DNA from: Candidatus Izemoplasma sp.
GTDB lineage: Bacteria; Bacillota_I; Bacilli_A; Izemoplasmatales; Izemoplasmataceae
Direction: 5' to 3'
DNA length: 54,181 nucleotides
Assembly (NCBI GenBank): GCA_007117835.1
Contig: SKFU01000019.1
Span: forward strand, 1 to 54,181
The notes below the pieces were generated by a model. It searched no databases. It was given only the letters and a program-made list of their open reading frames with translations, and was not told where the DNA came from. A program made the translations under genes and the position numbers. This document shows positions 4,574 through 53,168 of the stretch, one piece after another (the first letter of the stretch is position 1; each line of letters begins with the position of its first letter).

Positions 4574-4582
4574 TGATACAAT
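4574..4582 (+). promoter_or_regulatory. Extended -10 promoter of the purine riboswitch transcript
   Basis: TGATACAAT matches the TGn-extended -10. The predicted start, about 7 nt downstream near 4589, puts the RNA 5' end at the first base of a segment able to pair with 4704-4715. No good -35 is visible. Confidence 0.55.
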
Positions 4583-4594
4583 TAATATGGTTGG

Positions 4595-4663
4595 TATCAT
4601 ATAAGGTCAGTAATACGGTCTGATTGTCTCTACCCCAACACCGTAAACGTTGGGACTATGGTA
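4595..4663 (+). ncRNA. Purine riboswitch aptamer, guanine type
   Basis: A three-way junction matches the purine aptamer. P1 is TATCATA (4595-4601) with TATGGTA (4657-4663). P2 is GTCAG (4606-4610) with CTGAT (4620-4624). P3 is CCCAAC (4634-4639) with GTTGGG (4649-4654). Conserved core stretches TCTACC, CCGTAAA and GACTATG are present. The specificity base after GA is C (4656), the guanine/hypoxanthine state rather than the adenine state (T). It precedes a purine permease, as expected. No T-run terminator follows; control may be translational. Confidence 0.93.
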
Positions 4664-4739
4664 TTCACATGAATCAATAACAAGTTTTCTGCAATTTGTG
4701 GTTATGATACTAACCGACAAAAAAAAGGAGGCTTCATTC

Positions 4740-6110
4740 ATGGAAAAAGTAACAGAGTTTTTTAAGATTCGCCAGCGTGGCAGTACAATTAAGACAGAAT
4801 TACTTGCCGGTTTAACAACATTTTTAGCGATGGCGTATATCTTACCAGTCAACTCAGGTATGCTGAGTGCAACTGGGATGCCGATTGCAGGTGTATTTTT
4901 TGCAACTGTCATGGCATCAATGATTGCTGCAATGATTATGGGATTCATCGCGAATTATCCCGTAGCATTAGCACCTGGCATGGGAATTAATGCATTTTTC
5001 ACCTACACTGTTGTATTTGGGTATGGGTTGAGTTGGCAAGCAGCACTTGCTGCCGTGTTAATTTCAGGTGTATTGTTCCTAGTCATCTCGATTTCAGGAT
5101 TGCGTAAAATGGTCATTGACGCAATTCCACAGGGACTTAAATTTGCCGTTGGTGCAGGTATTGGGTTTTTCATTACATTTATTGGACTTAAGAATGCCGG
5201 AATCATTGTATCAGATCCAGTCACATTTGTGACCTTAGGCAACTTAGGACATCCAGCAGTTTTACTGGGTATTTTCGGGTTGATTTTAGTTGTTGTTCTT
5301 TTCACAATGGGCAATCGTTTTGCACTTATTATCGCCATTGCAGCAACCGCAATCCTTGGTGTTGTTTTAGGTTTATTGGGTGTTTCAAACATGCCAGCAT
5401 TTGATGCAAGTGCAACCGAAGGGTTACTTGCTGGTGTTTCTGAAACATTCTTAGCCGCGTTTGCTGGCATGGGAGAACTGTTTTCAAAACCAGAAGCCAT
5501 TTTCATTATTTTTACTTTCTTGTTTGTTGATTTCTTTGATACGGCAGGCACACTGATTGCCGTTGGTAACCGTGCAGGTTTAATCAACGAAGACGGCGAA
5601 TTGGTTAATGGAAATAAAGCGTTATTGGCAGATTCAGTTGGGACAATTGCTGGGGCACTACTCGGGACTAGTACGGTGACTAGCTATATTGAGTCAAGTA
5701 CCGGGATTGAACAAGGTGGCCGCACAGGGTTGACTGCGGTTACTGTGGGTATTTTATTTTTCTTATCGCTTCTCATTTATCCAGTGCTTAGTATATTTAC
5801 AGGGATATTTGACCCAGCGACAGGCACGGTTTATTCACCAGTTACCGCGATGGCTTTAATTATGGTTGGGGCACTCATGGTTGCTCAATTGAAAGAAATT
5901 GATTGGGATGATAAAGCAATCTTAATTCCATCATTCTTAACCATCGTATTTATGATTTTCACCTTCTCAATTGCGGAAGGTATTGCCATTGGATTCATCT
6001 TCTATCCAATTGTGATGATGTCACAAGGCCGCGCTAAAGAAGTTAATAAAATTATGTATATTTTAATGATTTTCTTTGTTGTGTTCTTTGTTTTAAATGT
6101 ATTGATTTAA
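4740..6110 (+). CDS. NCS2 family guanine/hypoxanthine permease (PbuG/AzgA-like)
   Basis: Purine base importer of the cytoplasmic membrane, 456 residues with about 12-13 hydrophobic segments. Recognised by FVDFFDTAGTLIAVGNRAG and SVGTIAGALLGTSTVTSYIE, typical of the AzgA/PbuG group. The start is the ATG at 4740, 8 nt after AAGGAGG (GGAGG 4727-4731); an in-frame upstream start at 4650 would lie inside the riboswitch and is rejected. The guanine-type aptamer upstream supports purine as the substrate and repression by guanine. Confidence 0.95.
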   Translation: MEKVTEFFKIRQRGSTIKTELLAGLTTFLAMAYILPVNSGMLSATGMPIAGVFFATVMASMIAAMIMGFIANYPVALAPGMGINAFFTYTVVFGYGLSWQAALAAVLISGVLFLVISISGLRKMVIDAIPQGLKFAVGAGIGFFITFIGLKNAGIIVSDPVTFVTLGNLGHPAVLLGIFGLILVVVLFTMGNRFALIIAIAATAILGVVLGLLGVSNMPAFDASATEGLLAGVSETFLAAFAGMGELFSKPEAIFIIFTFLFVDFFDTAGTLIAVGNRAGLINEDGELVNGNKALLADSVGTIAGALLGTSTVTSYIESSTGIEQGGRTGLTAVTVGILFFLSLLIYPVLSIFTGIFDPATGTVYSPVTAMALIMVGALMVAQLKEIDWDDKAILIPSFLTIVFMIFTFSIAEGIAIGFIFYPIVMMSQGRAKEVNKIMYILMIFFVVFFVLNVLI

Positions 6111-14089: not shown

Positions 14090-14821
14090 ATGATACCATT
14101 AGACCTTTTTATGATTCATTTTTATATGTTGGCTATATTTGCAACATTGGTCAAAACAAAAATTGATATTAAACTCTATCGGACCTTAAAGCTTGCGGTG
14201 GTCTTACTTTTTGTCAGTTGGCTATATTTGCATTTCAAATCGCCACCCACAAAACATTGGGTCTATTTTCTATTGCAATTATTACCCATGGTTTTGGTGT
14301 TTATCGTGATGGTAAAAACAGAAGTGAACACGGGTATTCGTTTTTTAGGAATAAAGGCCGGTTTCTTAGTTGCCACACCACTTGACGCCTCGTTAAAGGC
14401 AGAGCTATTGCAAGCTATCACCCGTTTATCTGATGAAAAAATAGGCGCTTTAATTACGTTTGAACGCAGTGATCGTTTGGATGAGTTTATTGATGCTGCA
14501 TTTCCGCTTGACGCATCAATCCAACAAGAACTTTTAGTTACCTTGTTTATGCCTAAAACACCACTACACGATGGTGCGGTTATTATTCGGGAGAGCCGTC
14601 TAGTGTGTGCAGGTGCTTACTATCCAACCAGCGATCAAGTCACGATTCCTAAATCATTGGGTTCACGTCACCGCGCTGCCATTGGTATCAGTGAAATCAC
14701 GGATGCCTTAACAATCATTGTGAGTGAACAAACTGGACACATTAGCATCACGATTAACGGCTATTTAGACCAAGATATTAGTCACGATTCATTAATGCTT
14801 TACGTAGAAAAGTACTTATAG
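14090..14821 (+). CDS. cdaA: Diadenylate cyclase CdaA
   Basis: Joins two ATP into c-di-AMP, the second messenger for potassium, osmolyte and envelope homeostasis. 243 residues: three N-terminal membrane segments (about 5-20, 31-47, 55-75) then a DAC domain with LHDGAVII (DGA motif) and GSRHRAAIGIS (RHR motif), both intact, so catalysis is expected. In most Bacillota cdaA is followed by the regulator cdaR (YbbR) and glmM; neither is here. Instead two membrane proteins of unusual composition follow at 27 bp and with overlap. AGGTG ribosome site upstream. Confidence 0.95.
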   Translation: MIPLDLFMIHFYMLAIFATLVKTKIDIKLYRTLKLAVVLLFVSWLYLHFKSPPTKHWVYFLLQLLPMVLVFIVMVKTEVNTGIRFLGIKAGFLVATPLDASLKAELLQAITRLSDEKIGALITFERSDRLDEFIDAAFPLDASIQQELLVTLFMPKTPLHDGAVIIRESRLVCAGAYYPTSDQVTIPKSLGSRHRAAIGISEITDALTIIVSEQTGHISITINGYLDQDISHDSLMLYVEKYL

Positions 14822-14848
14822 GAATGTTCCTTGTATGGGGGTGGTTTG

Positions 14849-17080
14849 ATGCAAACGTATGATGTTGTCATTACAGGGTCTGATTTTACTGCATATGTTG
14901 CAGCTTTTTATCTTGCCAAAAAAGACCGCCGCATCGCCTTGATTCAAACACCCAACCCATCAACTTATGAGTATTTAAAAAAACCACTCATTGATGCCGA
15001 TAAAATTCGATATCCATTTGATTATCCGTATCGAGAACTGGGGGGACTTGAACCCAATCAACTGACACAAAGCTATTTAGAAGCGATGGGGTTATCCGCG
15101 CTCACCTTGAATGTGATAAAACAAAAAGAGACAGAAATTATCCAAGCCAAAGATAAACGATATCAACGCCCAAACGATTGGGTAGGGTTCCGTATTTACT
15201 TGGTGCGTTTCTATCCTAAATATCGTGATCAAATCCACCGCTTTTTTGCCGATATGAATGATTATTATGAGGATTTCAAACACCAACGTTTCGAGCGATT
15301 TAAAGACAGACCTTACCGTTTATCAAAGATGATGGCTAGTTTCCGTAACAAGTCGCTTGAGACAGTGTTAAAAGAGTATTTTGAAGATGATATTTTACGC
15401 GAAGAGTTCCGTTTTTTTCAAGCAGTCGACGGGTATAAACTGCATGAAATTCATGCGACCGAATATTTTAAACGTTTTTTTAACTCGATGATTGAACAAT
15501 CTTATTATTTGGTTCAAACCGATGCGTCATTATATAAAATGTTTGATATGCAACAGTTTGAAGATGTGGATGTCTACAAGTCAACGATTGAATCTATTGA
15601 TAATAACGAACAAGGCATTCAAAGCATCACGCTATCTAGTGGTCAAAAGATTGCTGCTGAGTATTTTATTCTTGATCAACCCTATGGGGCACTAAAACAA
15701 CAAGGTATTCCCTTAAATAACCGTTTTAAGCAATCGTTATACATAGCCTTAGAAGCACCTGCGGAGACGTATGGGTTTCATGCATTGAACGTCTTGTTAA
15801 GCGTTCCTAAATCAGCACTAAGCATACGTGTGATCAATTATGGGTACTTTCACCCTAAACAAAAACCAAGTTTAAGGATAGAAACAGTAAATCCTATGAG
15901 CGAAGACGCTGTAATTAATGAGATTATAACGTATTTTCCAGCGTTAAAAGGACACATTAAAAAAGTTAAGGCCAGCGATGTTGAACCACTCTACTCAAGT
16001 TTGATACAAACCGCTAAGATGAGTTTAGAACACACCGACAAAGCGGATCGTTTACAGCATCGATACAGTTTTGGCAACACGCTATATTCAGGCAGTAAAA
16101 TAGGGCAAGAGTCGGGTTTGATTGGCCGCTTAATGTTGGGCGTTGAACTTGCTGATTTAATAGAAAAACGGTTAAAACAAAAAGAAAGTGATACCGTCAT
16201 CGCGAAACAGAATATGTTGATTTCTAAACTACTGCATGGGTATAAAAAAATGGTGATTACCGATGATGTGATGGTTTCGTTTGACTTTGGGAAACGCAAA
16301 GTCCCTGTCAGGTTCAATCATCAAAACGCATATACTTATGATAAACCTGTCAAGATTCAATTAAATATCAAAGCATCTTACATGATACTAGAGCAATTAA
16401 GACAAGGCCAAATTACAATCGCAGATGCATTGACACAAAAGCAATTATCATTTACAGGCGATGTTAATTTGTTTAAAGCGATTACAGCAAGTTTACGTTT
16501 GGGTGAACGCGCTGTAACACCGCCGAAATACGTGTCTTATCCCAAACCGTACGGGTATTATATGTTGATTATAAACATGGCCCTTTTAACAGTATGGATG
16601 GGTGCAGTAATGCAAACACAAACATGGATAGTGACCGCCATATATGTGGGGATACTAATTATTAAAGTTTTCATCCAAACATTGCGTCTAAAACTGATAA
16701 TGCCAAGTGATTTTATAGGGTTTGGTGTGGCACTTATTGTTTTTCTTACAAATTACTTTGATATTACTTTCCATGTAAGCAATGTTCCATGGATTTATGC
16801 AGGGGTTTTACTGTTGGGGTTGGTATTAAAAAAACCATGGCTGTATTATGAAATGTATCGCGATGAAAAACCGGCGGATGCATTTACGTTTTTATATGTT
16901 ACAATGATGCAAGGTCTCACGTGGTTGTGGACCATTAGTTTTGTTTTGGTGGGTATCATTTTACGTTATGTTGAGATGCCTAACACCTGGTTATATATCT
17001 ATGTTTTTGTTATCATGATGTACATTTCAGGCCGTTACAAGAAAAACTATATTCTTAACACGATTAAAGGAAGAATGTAA
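14849..17080 (+). CDS. Fusion protein: FAD/NAD-type oxidoreductase domain + SCP2 lipid-binding domain + about six TM helices
   Basis: Not a family I can name as a whole. 743 residues from the ATG at 14849 (GGGGTGG just upstream; an in-frame TTG at 14831 is less likely). Residues 1-450 resemble amine-oxidase/phytoene-desaturase type flavoproteins: YDVVITGSDFTAYVAAFYLA is a Rossmann start in which the usual GxGxxG is GSDFTA, so cofactor binding is uncertain. About 455-560 looks like an SCP2 sterol-carrier domain (LEQLRQGQITIADALTQ, then LSFTGDVNLFKAITASL). From about 570 onward there are six hydrophobic helices. It sits between cdaA and a PAS/GGDEF protein, upstream of isoprenoid genes. A membrane lipid or isoprenoid substrate is inference. 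Confidence 0.7.
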   Translation: MQTYDVVITGSDFTAYVAAFYLAKKDRRIALIQTPNPSTYEYLKKPLIDADKIRYPFDYPYRELGGLEPNQLTQSYLEAMGLSALTLNVIKQKETEIIQAKDKRYQRPNDWVGFRIYLVRFYPKYRDQIHRFFADMNDYYEDFKHQRFERFKDRPYRLSKMMASFRNKSLETVLKEYFEDDILREEFRFFQAVDGYKLHEIHATEYFKRFFNSMIEQSYYLVQTDASLYKMFDMQQFEDVDVYKSTIESIDNNEQGIQSITLSSGQKIAAEYFILDQPYGALKQQGIPLNNRFKQSLYIALEAPAETYGFHALNVLLSVPKSALSIRVINYGYFHPKQKPSLRIETVNPMSEDAVINEIITYFPALKGHIKKVKASDVEPLYSSLIQTAKMSLEHTDKADRLQHRYSFGNTLYSGSKIGQESGLIGRLMLGVELADLIEKRLKQKESDTVIAKQNMLISKLLHGYKKMVITDDVMVSFDFGKRKVPVRFNHQNAYTYDKPVKIQLNIKASYMILEQLRQGQITIADALTQKQLSFTGDVNLFKAITASLRLGERAVTPPKYVSYPKPYGYYMLIINMALLTVWMGAVMQTQTWIVTAIYVGILIIKVFIQTLRLKLIMPSDFIGFGVALIVFLTNYFDITFHVSNVPWIYAGVLLLGLVLKKPWLYYEMYRDEKPADAFTFLYVTMMQGLTWLWTISFVLVGIILRYVEMPNTWLYIYVFVIMMYISGRYKKNYILNTIKGRM

Positions 17081-18234
17081 TGTTAAACGATTTAAATCAG
17101 TTCATTCACGTTATGTTTATTATCTGGGCGTTGCTTATAATCAGTAAACGACTCCTAACTAAGAAAGGTGATTTCGAGGTTTTCTTATGGGTGCTTTTTG
17201 GCGCGTTGTATTTGGTTTTCGACGTGTTTTCATTGGCGACATTACCTTTTGGAGAACCCGTTGATTTTATTGTAATTGGGTTATTATATACAGTGTTTTT
17301 TTATGACATTAAAGCACTCTTTAAACGCAAAGATGAACAACAAAGATATCAAATGCTACAAAAAAATTATGATATGCTTGAAAAACAAGCAGAGCTTTTA
17401 AGGCAACGCTTTATTGCAACCATTGATTTATTGCCCACCGGTATTGTTTTTCGAACCGGGAAAGAGTCTATGTTTGGGACCGATAAGTACATTGAATTAA
17501 TGGATATTGATAACAATGAATTTACATACGATGCATTTTATAATCGATTGCATACAGATGATCGCAACACCTATGAAACGACCATTAAAAAACTGTCTTC
17601 AAAACGCAACACCTATCAAACCAGCTACCGCTTTAAAATGGGGACGCGCTATGTTTGGATGAAAGAAATAGGGACTAAGATTACCGTTGATAAGCATCCT
17701 GTGGTAATCAGTATTGTGACAGGATTGGATGTAAAAATGTATCCGAAAACGGATATTGAAGTGTTAAATAATTTACCGAATGAAAAAGCCTTCGAAGAGC
17801 ATATTCTTAGTTTGAACCGTTTACAAAAATCCTATACTTTGATATTCTTTGAACTGACGAATATCCCAAAAGTTAACGAGAAGTATGGCCGAGATATCGG
17901 CGATTTAATGATGGGAGAGTTTCTCAAGAAACTTAAACACAATTTTGTTAAGGATGCACACAGTGTTTATCGGTTAACGGGGATTCGATTTGCGCTTATA
18001 CTCAAAGACCCACGTAAATACGAGGTCTTAGAACGCGCCTTAGTCCATGGTGGCGACTTGATGAATTTTGACATGCAATTTGGTGGTATCAAACACAGTA
18101 TTTATCCAGCATTTGGGATTCACCATATTCAGGCGTTTAACGAACCGATTGATGCGATTATTGCCCGTGTCCATAAAGCGCTAAACATTGCCTTAGACAA
18201 TCAGATGACAGAAAATTATTTCATTATCCGATGA
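17080..18234 (+). CDS. Membrane-bound PAS-degenerate GGDEF protein (GdpP-like N-terminal architecture, no DHH domain)
   Basis: 384 residues. Two or three hydrophobic segments (residues 5-80), a basic coiled-coil linker (about 83-112), a PAS fold (about 113-220, with LHTDDRNTYETTIKKL and TRYVWMKEIGTKI), then a GGDEF-like domain (about 225-384). The helix motif KYGRDIGDLMMGEFLKKL is GGDEF-like but the signature itself is TGIRF, lacking the metal and GTP-binding residues, so no c-di-GMP synthesis is expected. TM-PAS-degenerate GGDEF is the front half of the c-di-AMP phosphodiesterase GdpP, but the DHH/DHHA1 part is absent. Start overlaps the previous stop (TAATG). Confidence 0.75.
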   Translation: MLNDLNQFIHVMFIIWALLIISKRLLTKKGDFEVFLWVLFGALYLVFDVFSLATLPFGEPVDFIVIGLLYTVFFYDIKALFKRKDEQQRYQMLQKNYDMLEKQAELLRQRFIATIDLLPTGIVFRTGKESMFGTDKYIELMDIDNNEFTYDAFYNRLHTDDRNTYETTIKKLSSKRNTYQTSYRFKMGTRYVWMKEIGTKITVDKHPVVISIVTGLDVKMYPKTDIEVLNNLPNEKAFEEHILSLNRLQKSYTLIFFELTNIPKVNEKYGRDIGDLMMGEFLKKLKHNFVKDAHSVYRLTGIRFALILKDPRKYEVLERALVHGGDLMNFDMQFGGIKHSIYPAFGIHHIQAFNEPIDAIIARVHKALNIALDNQMTENYFIIR

Positions 18235-18764
18235 AGGCACAAAAGAAAGCATTGAGAACAACTTGGTTAAAACAAAGAAAGCAAATGGCTGATTCAGATA
18301 TCCACATGAAATCACAACACATTCAAAACCACATTATCGCATGGTTAAAAACACAGGACGTGCGTAACGTAGGACTCTATGTACCAATTCAAAACGAGGT
18401 TGACATAAGACCCCTATGCGAACACGTCCGTTGTCTTTATCCAAAAATTGATCAAACACTGCATTTTTTTGATGATACACAGGGTTTCAGCTTAGGGCCT
18501 ATGGGAACAAAAGAACCCATAGGAACAACGCCCGTACCACCAGAGGCCATCGATGTGTTATTAATCCCTGGAATTGCGTTTGACCTTATGGGATATCGCT
18601 TAGGTTATGGCAAAGGGTACTTCGATAGATACTTAGAAAACTACCAAGGGGTGACCATTGGTATCACCATAGAAACATTTTTAGTTGAGTCATTGCCGCA
18701 TGAAAAACACGATCAACCAGTGGCATTTGTAGTGACAGAAAACGGATTTTGGAGGAGTCGATGA
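18231..18764 (+). CDS. fau: 5-formyltetrahydrofolate cyclo-ligase
   Basis: ATP-dependent conversion of 5-formyl-THF to 5,10-methenyl-THF, recycling a folate side product. 177 residues. The family signature IPGIAFDLMGYRLGYGKGYFDRYL is intact, and the N-terminal basic segment KAQKKALRTTWLKQRKQM is typical. The start overlaps the preceding stop by 4 bp (ATGA), so it is co-translated with the PAS/GGDEF gene; ispD follows after 1 bp. Confidence 0.95.
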   Translation: MKAQKKALRTTWLKQRKQMADSDIHMKSQHIQNHIIAWLKTQDVRNVGLYVPIQNEVDIRPLCEHVRCLYPKIDQTLHFFDDTQGFSLGPMGTKEPIGTTPVPPEAIDVLLIPGIAFDLMGYRLGYGKGYFDRYLENYQGVTIGITIETFLVESLPHEKHDQPVAFVVTENGFWRSR

Positions 18765-52996: not shown

Positions 52997-53087
52997 GGAG
53001 TAGTACTCAAGCGGCTGAAGAGGTGCCCCTGCTAAGGGCATAGGTCGGGGAACCGGCGCGAGGGTTCAAATCCCTCCTACTCCGCCA
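52997..53087 (+). tRNA. tRNA-Ser (GCU anticodon)
   Basis: Acceptor GGAGTAG (52997-53003) pairs with CTACTCC (53077-53083); discriminator G and encoded CCA (53085-53087). Anticodon stem TGCCC/GGGCA with loop CTGCTAA; anticodon GCT at 53031-53033 reads AGC/AGU. A long variable arm (from 53041) and the T-arm GGGTTCAAATCCC are typical of tRNA-Ser. Confidence 0.96.
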
Positions 53088-53091
53088 CCGT

Positions 53092-53168
53092 GGCCCGTTG
53101 GAGAAGCGGCTTAACTCACATGCCTTTCACGCATGCATTCACGGGTTCGAATCCCGTACGGGTCACCA
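53092..53168 (+). tRNA. tRNA-Glu (UUC anticodon)
   Basis: Acceptor GGCCCGT (53092-53098) pairs with ACGGGTC (53158-53164); discriminator A and encoded CCA (53166-53168). Anticodon stem CATGC/GCATG, anticodon TTC at 53126-53128. T-arm with GGGTTCGAATCCC. Lies 4 bp after tRNA-Ser in the same transcript. Confidence 0.96.

Follow-up and report, generated by a model that had tools for sequence, protein, structure and literature searches.

Which proteins accompany the synthase of cyclic diadenosine monophosphate (c-di-AMP) in Bacilli that lack its usual partner CdaR? The genes cdaR and glmM come after cdaA in Bacillota, and in B. subtilis and its relatives CdaR and GlmM both bind and regulate CdaA (PMC8573169, PMC10243994). 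Many Bacillota cannot live without c-di-AMP, and the mode of CdaR control over CdaA has not been settled (PMC8573169). The window analyzed here, a whole stretch of 54,181 nucleotides from Candidatus Izemoplasma sp. (contig SKFU01000019.1), carries a cdaA gene followed by two other genes, which encode a fusion protein designated FST (flavoprotein-fold, SCP2, transmembrane) and a protein designated PGG (PAS, pseudo-GGDEF). We propose, with a probability of about 0.5, that these genes form an alternative CdaA regulatory cassette of CdaR-less Bacilli, in which PGG would regulate CdaA and FST would provide a hydrophobic-ligand input. The three genes are:

14090..14821, + strand: cdaA, encoding a membrane diadenylate cyclase whose DAC domain shows the motifs PLHDGAV and GSRHRAA
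14849..17080, + strand: FST, fusion of 743 residues with amine-oxidase/CrtI-type fold, SCP2 and membrane domain
17080..18234, + strand: PGG, three N-terminal hydrophobic helices, PAS and a GGDEF domain judged catalytically dead

Evidence for a replacement of CdaR by PGG

The CdaA of the window is catalytically intact by its motifs. The Pfam DAC domain was found with E=3.6e-39, N-terminal membrane helices are present according to hydropathy, and the LHDG and RHRA positions are invariant in an alignment of 38 homologs. With the DGA and RHR motifs in place, the identification as c-di-AMP synthase made in the first-pass annotation was confirmed. The TIGR00159 score of 182.1 bits lies under the curated cut-off of 188.8; we attribute this to lineage divergence, because the cut-off is likewise unreached in 58 of 61 Izemoplasmatales genomes and the catalytic features are present.

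CdaR, recognized by its YbbR domains, was found in none of these 61 genomes, with positive control searches in B. subtilis and L. lactis, and neither PGG nor FST contains a YbbR domain according to Pfam. Among 395 genomes of the class, PGG (E<=1e-30) was detected in 100 and YbbR in 117, with no genome and no family containing both (Fisher 1.2e-18, genomes being treated as independent of kinship). CdaR adjoins cdaA in 11 of 12 loci checked. The lack of any co-occurrence, together with the position of CdaR beside cdaA, leads us to place PGG in the slot of CdaR, and we regard this as strong evidence, at the level of sequence comparison, for a replacement of one by the other.

The arrangement resembles the cdaA-cdaR-glmM operon of Bacillota in that a membrane-bound CdaA is directly followed by a membrane partner in one operon and in the same chromosomal slot. 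It differs in that CdaR is absent, PGG is found instead and FST is added. GlmM was rejected as a member of the operon, since glmM-like genes are located only elsewhere in the genome.

The cassette within and beyond Izemoplasmatales

The order-level survey covered the 61 related genomes, of which 41 encode FST, 52 cdaA (TIGR00159) and 59 full-scale PGG homologs. At the loci read, cdaA-FST-PGG keeps one orientation and one chromosomal slot. FST adjoins cdaA or is next but one to it in 40 of the 41 genomes, the 41st (G012) being split at contig ends, and in all 11 cdaA-carrying genomes without FST, PGG lies directly 3' of cdaA, an arrangement that probably goes back to at least two independent losses of FST. 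A conserved three-gene membrane cassette at the c-di-AMP synthase, as initially proposed from the window, therefore recurs across the order, and its linkage to cdaA is kept in the relatives. FST is an addition restricted to Izemoplasmatales and tied to cdaA: no full-length FST was found outside the order, where the nearest protein is a plain CrtI-like one in genome G082 that is not near cdaA, and no FST was found away from cdaA. On the PGG tree the presence of FST requires four changes, compared with a mean of 25.5 after shuffling; we infer a history of one gain and three losses, including its polarity.

PGG is the general element of the system and is found beyond Izemoplasmatales. Its profile matches longer relatives of about 520-540 residues in several families that belong to the class but not to the order, and in 17 of the 20 loci read there, cdaA lies immediately 5' of PGG. 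The exceptions are a locus at a contig edge (L192), one with cdaA 1.9 kb off (L194) and one without cdaA (L200). A fusion of CdaA and PGG, considered for these open reading frames (ORFs) of about 530 residues, was discarded: cdaA is a separate gene just 5', and the added length belongs to PGG itself. In 16 of the 17 loci the gap between cdaA and PGG encodes a protein of 55-65 residues (e.g., L185:3300-3488, L190:3009-3188, L195:5462-5656), which starts 5-15 bases past the cdaA stop and has a single hydrophobic helix as well as an N-terminal stretch that closes with P[FIVL]. Seven copies were scanned without any Pfam or NCBIfam match. At L197 the gap holds instead a methylglyoxal-synthase-like ORF, according to our own reading of the sequence.

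Several observations weigh against a functional unit of this kind. The surrounding housekeeping order (nrdJ // cdaA ... fau-ispD-ispF-nifU-S1-pgi) is likewise conserved, and in two opened loci a nucleotidyltransferase-like ORF lies between cdaA and FST (L073:4517-5344, L077:759-1559). Family f2 (G037, G039, G041, G043, G045, G047, G049) has no DAC domain of any kind in seven of seven genomes, which are 82-97% complete, and keeps a PGG homolog in all seven, which adjoins ispD/ispF at each of the five loci that were read; PGG is therefore not strictly tied to CdaA. GdpP, the c-di-AMP phosphodiesterase, is kept in five of the f2 genomes, and the family may have lost c-di-AMP synthesis or possess another synthase. 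Furthermore, the mutual exclusion of PGG and CdaR clusters by family and may reflect one historical replacement.

These points would agree with hitch-hiking, that is, with genes that merely share an old housekeeping operon of slow rearrangement while PGG and FST serve other processes; the conservation of the entire order, unrelated genes included, and the PGG of f2 beside ispD/ispF are what it would predict. We nevertheless consider it rather unlikely. FST was found neither away from cdaA nor in f2, where cdaA is lost and only weak partial matches to FST were obtained; the exchange with CdaR is specific to one slot; and three different membrane-protein solutions, namely FST, the protein of about 60 residues and CdaR, recur at one place.

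PGG is predicted to be a catalytically inactive sensor protein

The following features were assigned within PGG:

17455..17703, + strand: PAS_3 domain, residues 126-208; PAS_3 in 46 of 47 members
17764..18201, + strand: GGDEF-fold domain, residues 229-374; GGDEF in 47 of 47 members
17977..17991, + strand: TGIRF, replacing GGDEF; Ile at the catalytic Glu position in all 47 members

In the window protein Pfam identified GGDEF (4.7e-11) and PAS_3 (9.5e-6) behind three hydrophobic segments, as expected from the first description of a membrane-bound PAS protein with a degenerate GGDEF domain. The active-site positions were assigned by alignment to PleD, whose residue numbering was used. Within the 47 homologs the catalytic Glu is always replaced by Ile, and the metal-binding Asp by E, Q, H, R or Y, never being Asp; the guanine-site Asn is invariant and the second guanine-site position is D, N or S. 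Given the loss of both catalytic positions and the retention of the Asn, PGG is, judged by its sequence, no diguanylate cyclase but could bind a nucleotide.

From the GGDEF match and from the order of membrane segments, PAS and degenerate GGDEF, which PGG shares with the N-terminal half of GdpP, one might suspect that PGG actively makes c-di-GMP or is a shortened GdpP that degrades c-di-AMP. We consider both very improbable, as the sequence of PGG already contradicts them. PGG ends past the GGDEF domain, with no DHH/DHHA1 catalytic domains detected by Pfam, and its GGDEF is not of the GdpP Pfam type. The profile-profile match to GdpP is weak and confined to the membrane and early PAS region, and nearly all of these genomes encode elsewhere an intact GdpP (PF24898) that exceeds the cut-off.

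FST combines a flavoprotein-type fold, SCP2 and a membrane domain

FST was divided into the following parts:

14849..16183, + strand: residues 1-445, according to Foldseek a fold of the flavoprotein type, as in amine oxidases, carotenoid desaturase and Rab-GDI
14876..14893, + strand: degenerate dinucleotide-binding motif GSDFTA, where GxGxxG is expected
16256..16513, + strand: residues 470-555, SCP2 lipid-carrier-type domain
16541..17077, + strand: residues 565-743, membrane domain of about six helices without a match to a solved fold

Taken singly, the FST of the window gave no significant Pfam match; as an aligned family, FST matches CrtI/amine-oxidase-type and SCP2-type profiles. AlphaFold2 models reached a pLDDT (predicted local distance difference test) of 82.6 with an alignment of 37 sequences and of 89.0. 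For residues 1-445 Foldseek retrieved nicotine oxidoreductase (9.8e-16), the carotenoid desaturase 4rep (1.3e-14), CrtI 4dgk (5.5e-14) and Rab-GDI (2.6e-13). In the SCP2 region, Alkyl_sulf_C matched 28 of 37 members and SCP2 11 of 37 (E<=0.1), the PDB profiles 4nur and 2nbm were matched, and the Foldseek neighbors were Pisa1, UbiJ-SCP2, the alkylsulfatase C-domain and SCP2, so that on the model FST is judged to have a true SCP2 domain. Hydrophobic ligand binding is a feature of the UbiJ-SCP2 and alkylsulfatase systems; in FST, by contrast, the domain lies within a membrane fusion of the cdaA operon. The C-terminal stretch of about 180 residues is helical and membrane-like, matched the VC0807 family in two members and no solved structure in Foldseek. 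The initial description of this protein was thus upheld by profiles and Foldseek for the flavoprotein-like region and the SCP2 domain, and its membrane helices agree with the character of the C-terminal stretch, but the flavin-binding motif is degenerate in the copy of the window.

The window protein lacks the signature for flavin adenine dinucleotide (FAD): GSDFTA stands for GxGxxG, and a Gln is found where an acidic residue is expected at the end of strand 2. Among 37 aligned FSTs, GxG is present in 16, and GxG together with the strand-2 acid in 14; the complete signature is limited to a single clade of 14 genomes, which the PGG tree supports, and is missing from all 15 members of family f3 and from the clade of the window. 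The helical cap residues R107, Y117-L118-x-R120, P123, F133 and D135 are conserved in both groups, with and without the motif. FST may accordingly be flavin-dependent in one clade at most and elsewhere, the window included, a pseudo-flavoprotein. The scattered loss of the signature suggests that a flavoenzyme fold was kept for binding, and we infer that the retained function lies in binding through the cap, the SCP2 domain and the membrane domain rather than in flavin chemistry. FSTs of genus g5 are shorter, with a poorly conserved SCP2 region, so that the function may be decaying there. Separate CrtI-like paralogs of the window's own genome retain the FAD signature; these genes are found at L217 (G000:C55:33800-37600), apart from FST, and a phytoene synthase gene at G000:C33.

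A precedent for a flavoprotein fold that binds prenyl lipids exists in Rab-GDI/REP. The likeness to FST is one of fold only; those proteins are eukaryotic and soluble and possess neither an SCP2 nor a membrane domain.

Relation to isoprenoid synthesis

FST might alternatively be an active CrtI-type desaturase/isomerase or another isoprenoid redox enzyme, by which the cassette would tie c-di-AMP to isoprenoid synthesis. The CrtI-family profile matches, the carotenoid desaturase fold, the canonical FAD motif of the 14-genome clade and the downstream ispD/ispF genes are in line with this. However, FST differs from CrtI and the amine oxidases by the degenerate motif of most members, the window copy and all of f3 among them, by its fusion to SCP2 and membrane domains and by the missing link to phytoene synthase. 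A phytoene/squalene synthase was detected in nine of the 41 genomes with FST and in 10 of the 11 cdaA-carrying genomes without it, counts which ignore kinship. FST thus does not track the synthase, which weakens the case for an isoprenoid link. The genera g5 and g10 (G004, G019, G026, G033, G009), in which ispF was not found, keep the cassette; the missing ispF, with an operon that lacks it after PGG, suggests that the MEP (methylerythritol phosphate) pathway has been lost there. An isoprenoid enzyme is therefore improbable to us, and coupling to isoprenoids, as put forward in the first-pass annotation, or to carotenoids was ruled out as the principal explanation by the synthase distribution and by these ispF-less genera. 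That ispD and ispF lie nearby simply reflects gene order, which is conserved over a longer stretch. Lipid coupling through the SCP2 fold, as modelled, is possible.

Gene neighborhood and further features of the window

The gap between cdaA and FST measures 27 bp, FST and PGG overlap by one base, and PGG and fau by 4 bp. These ORF positions and the downstream order fau, ispD, ispF agree with those first reported, and the three downstream identities were upheld by profile search:

18231..18764, + strand: fau, 5-formyltetrahydrofolate cyclo-ligase (TIGR02727, 1.5e-42), which opens the downstream housekeeping genes

An internal terminator or a promoter of its own was discarded: the consensus scan revealed no terminator-like site in the cdaA-FST gap (14822-14848), and promoter-like sites are no commoner than in shuffled sequence. 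In g5 and g10 the operon runs from PGG straight into pspC/nifU. In the loci L185, L186, L187, L191, L201 and L203 of other families ispD and ispF are fused into one ORF of about 370 residues; they are separate in Izemoplasmatales. Elsewhere in the window, Rfam identified a purine riboswitch at 4577-4678 (+ strand; RF00167, 74 bits), directly 5' of a putative nucleobase permease ORF (within 4650-6110), and two tRNA genes toward the window end (52997-53165, + strand).

Proposed role and significance

In the regulatory cassette that we favor, PGG would be anchored in the membrane, act as a sensor and govern CdaA in the manner of CdaR, probably through contact of membrane helices. The cue read by its PAS domain would be cytosolic, and the dead GGDEF domain may bind a nucleotide without catalysis, which is proposed because of the invariant guanine-site Asn. 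FST, added in Izemoplasmatales, would be a membrane-anchored binder of hydrophobic ligands through its SCP2 domain and flavoprotein-type fold and would add a lipid or redox input to CdaA. A more far-reaching version, which is speculative and in our opinion unlikely, regards FST as a lipid receptor, derived from a flavoprotein fold by a change of purpose, that reports the state of membrane lipids, and PGG as reporter of the cytosolic redox or nucleotide state; together they would set c-di-AMP and hence turgor control without a wall. In the literature searched, no description of the cdaA-FST-PGG neighborhood or of the FST domain combination was found, consistent with the initial remark that no described system of such composition was known.

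The bacteria considered here are relatives of the wall-less mycoplasmas. Izemoplasma is described as wall-less (PMC8397711), so that the exchange of CdaR for PGG may, speculatively, mark a rewiring of c-di-AMP control at wall loss. As predicted from the genes, the arrangement of PGG and FST points to a different control of an often essential signal, and a lineage in which CdaR has been exchanged for an unrelated membrane sensor would represent a natural experiment on what CdaA requires of its partner.

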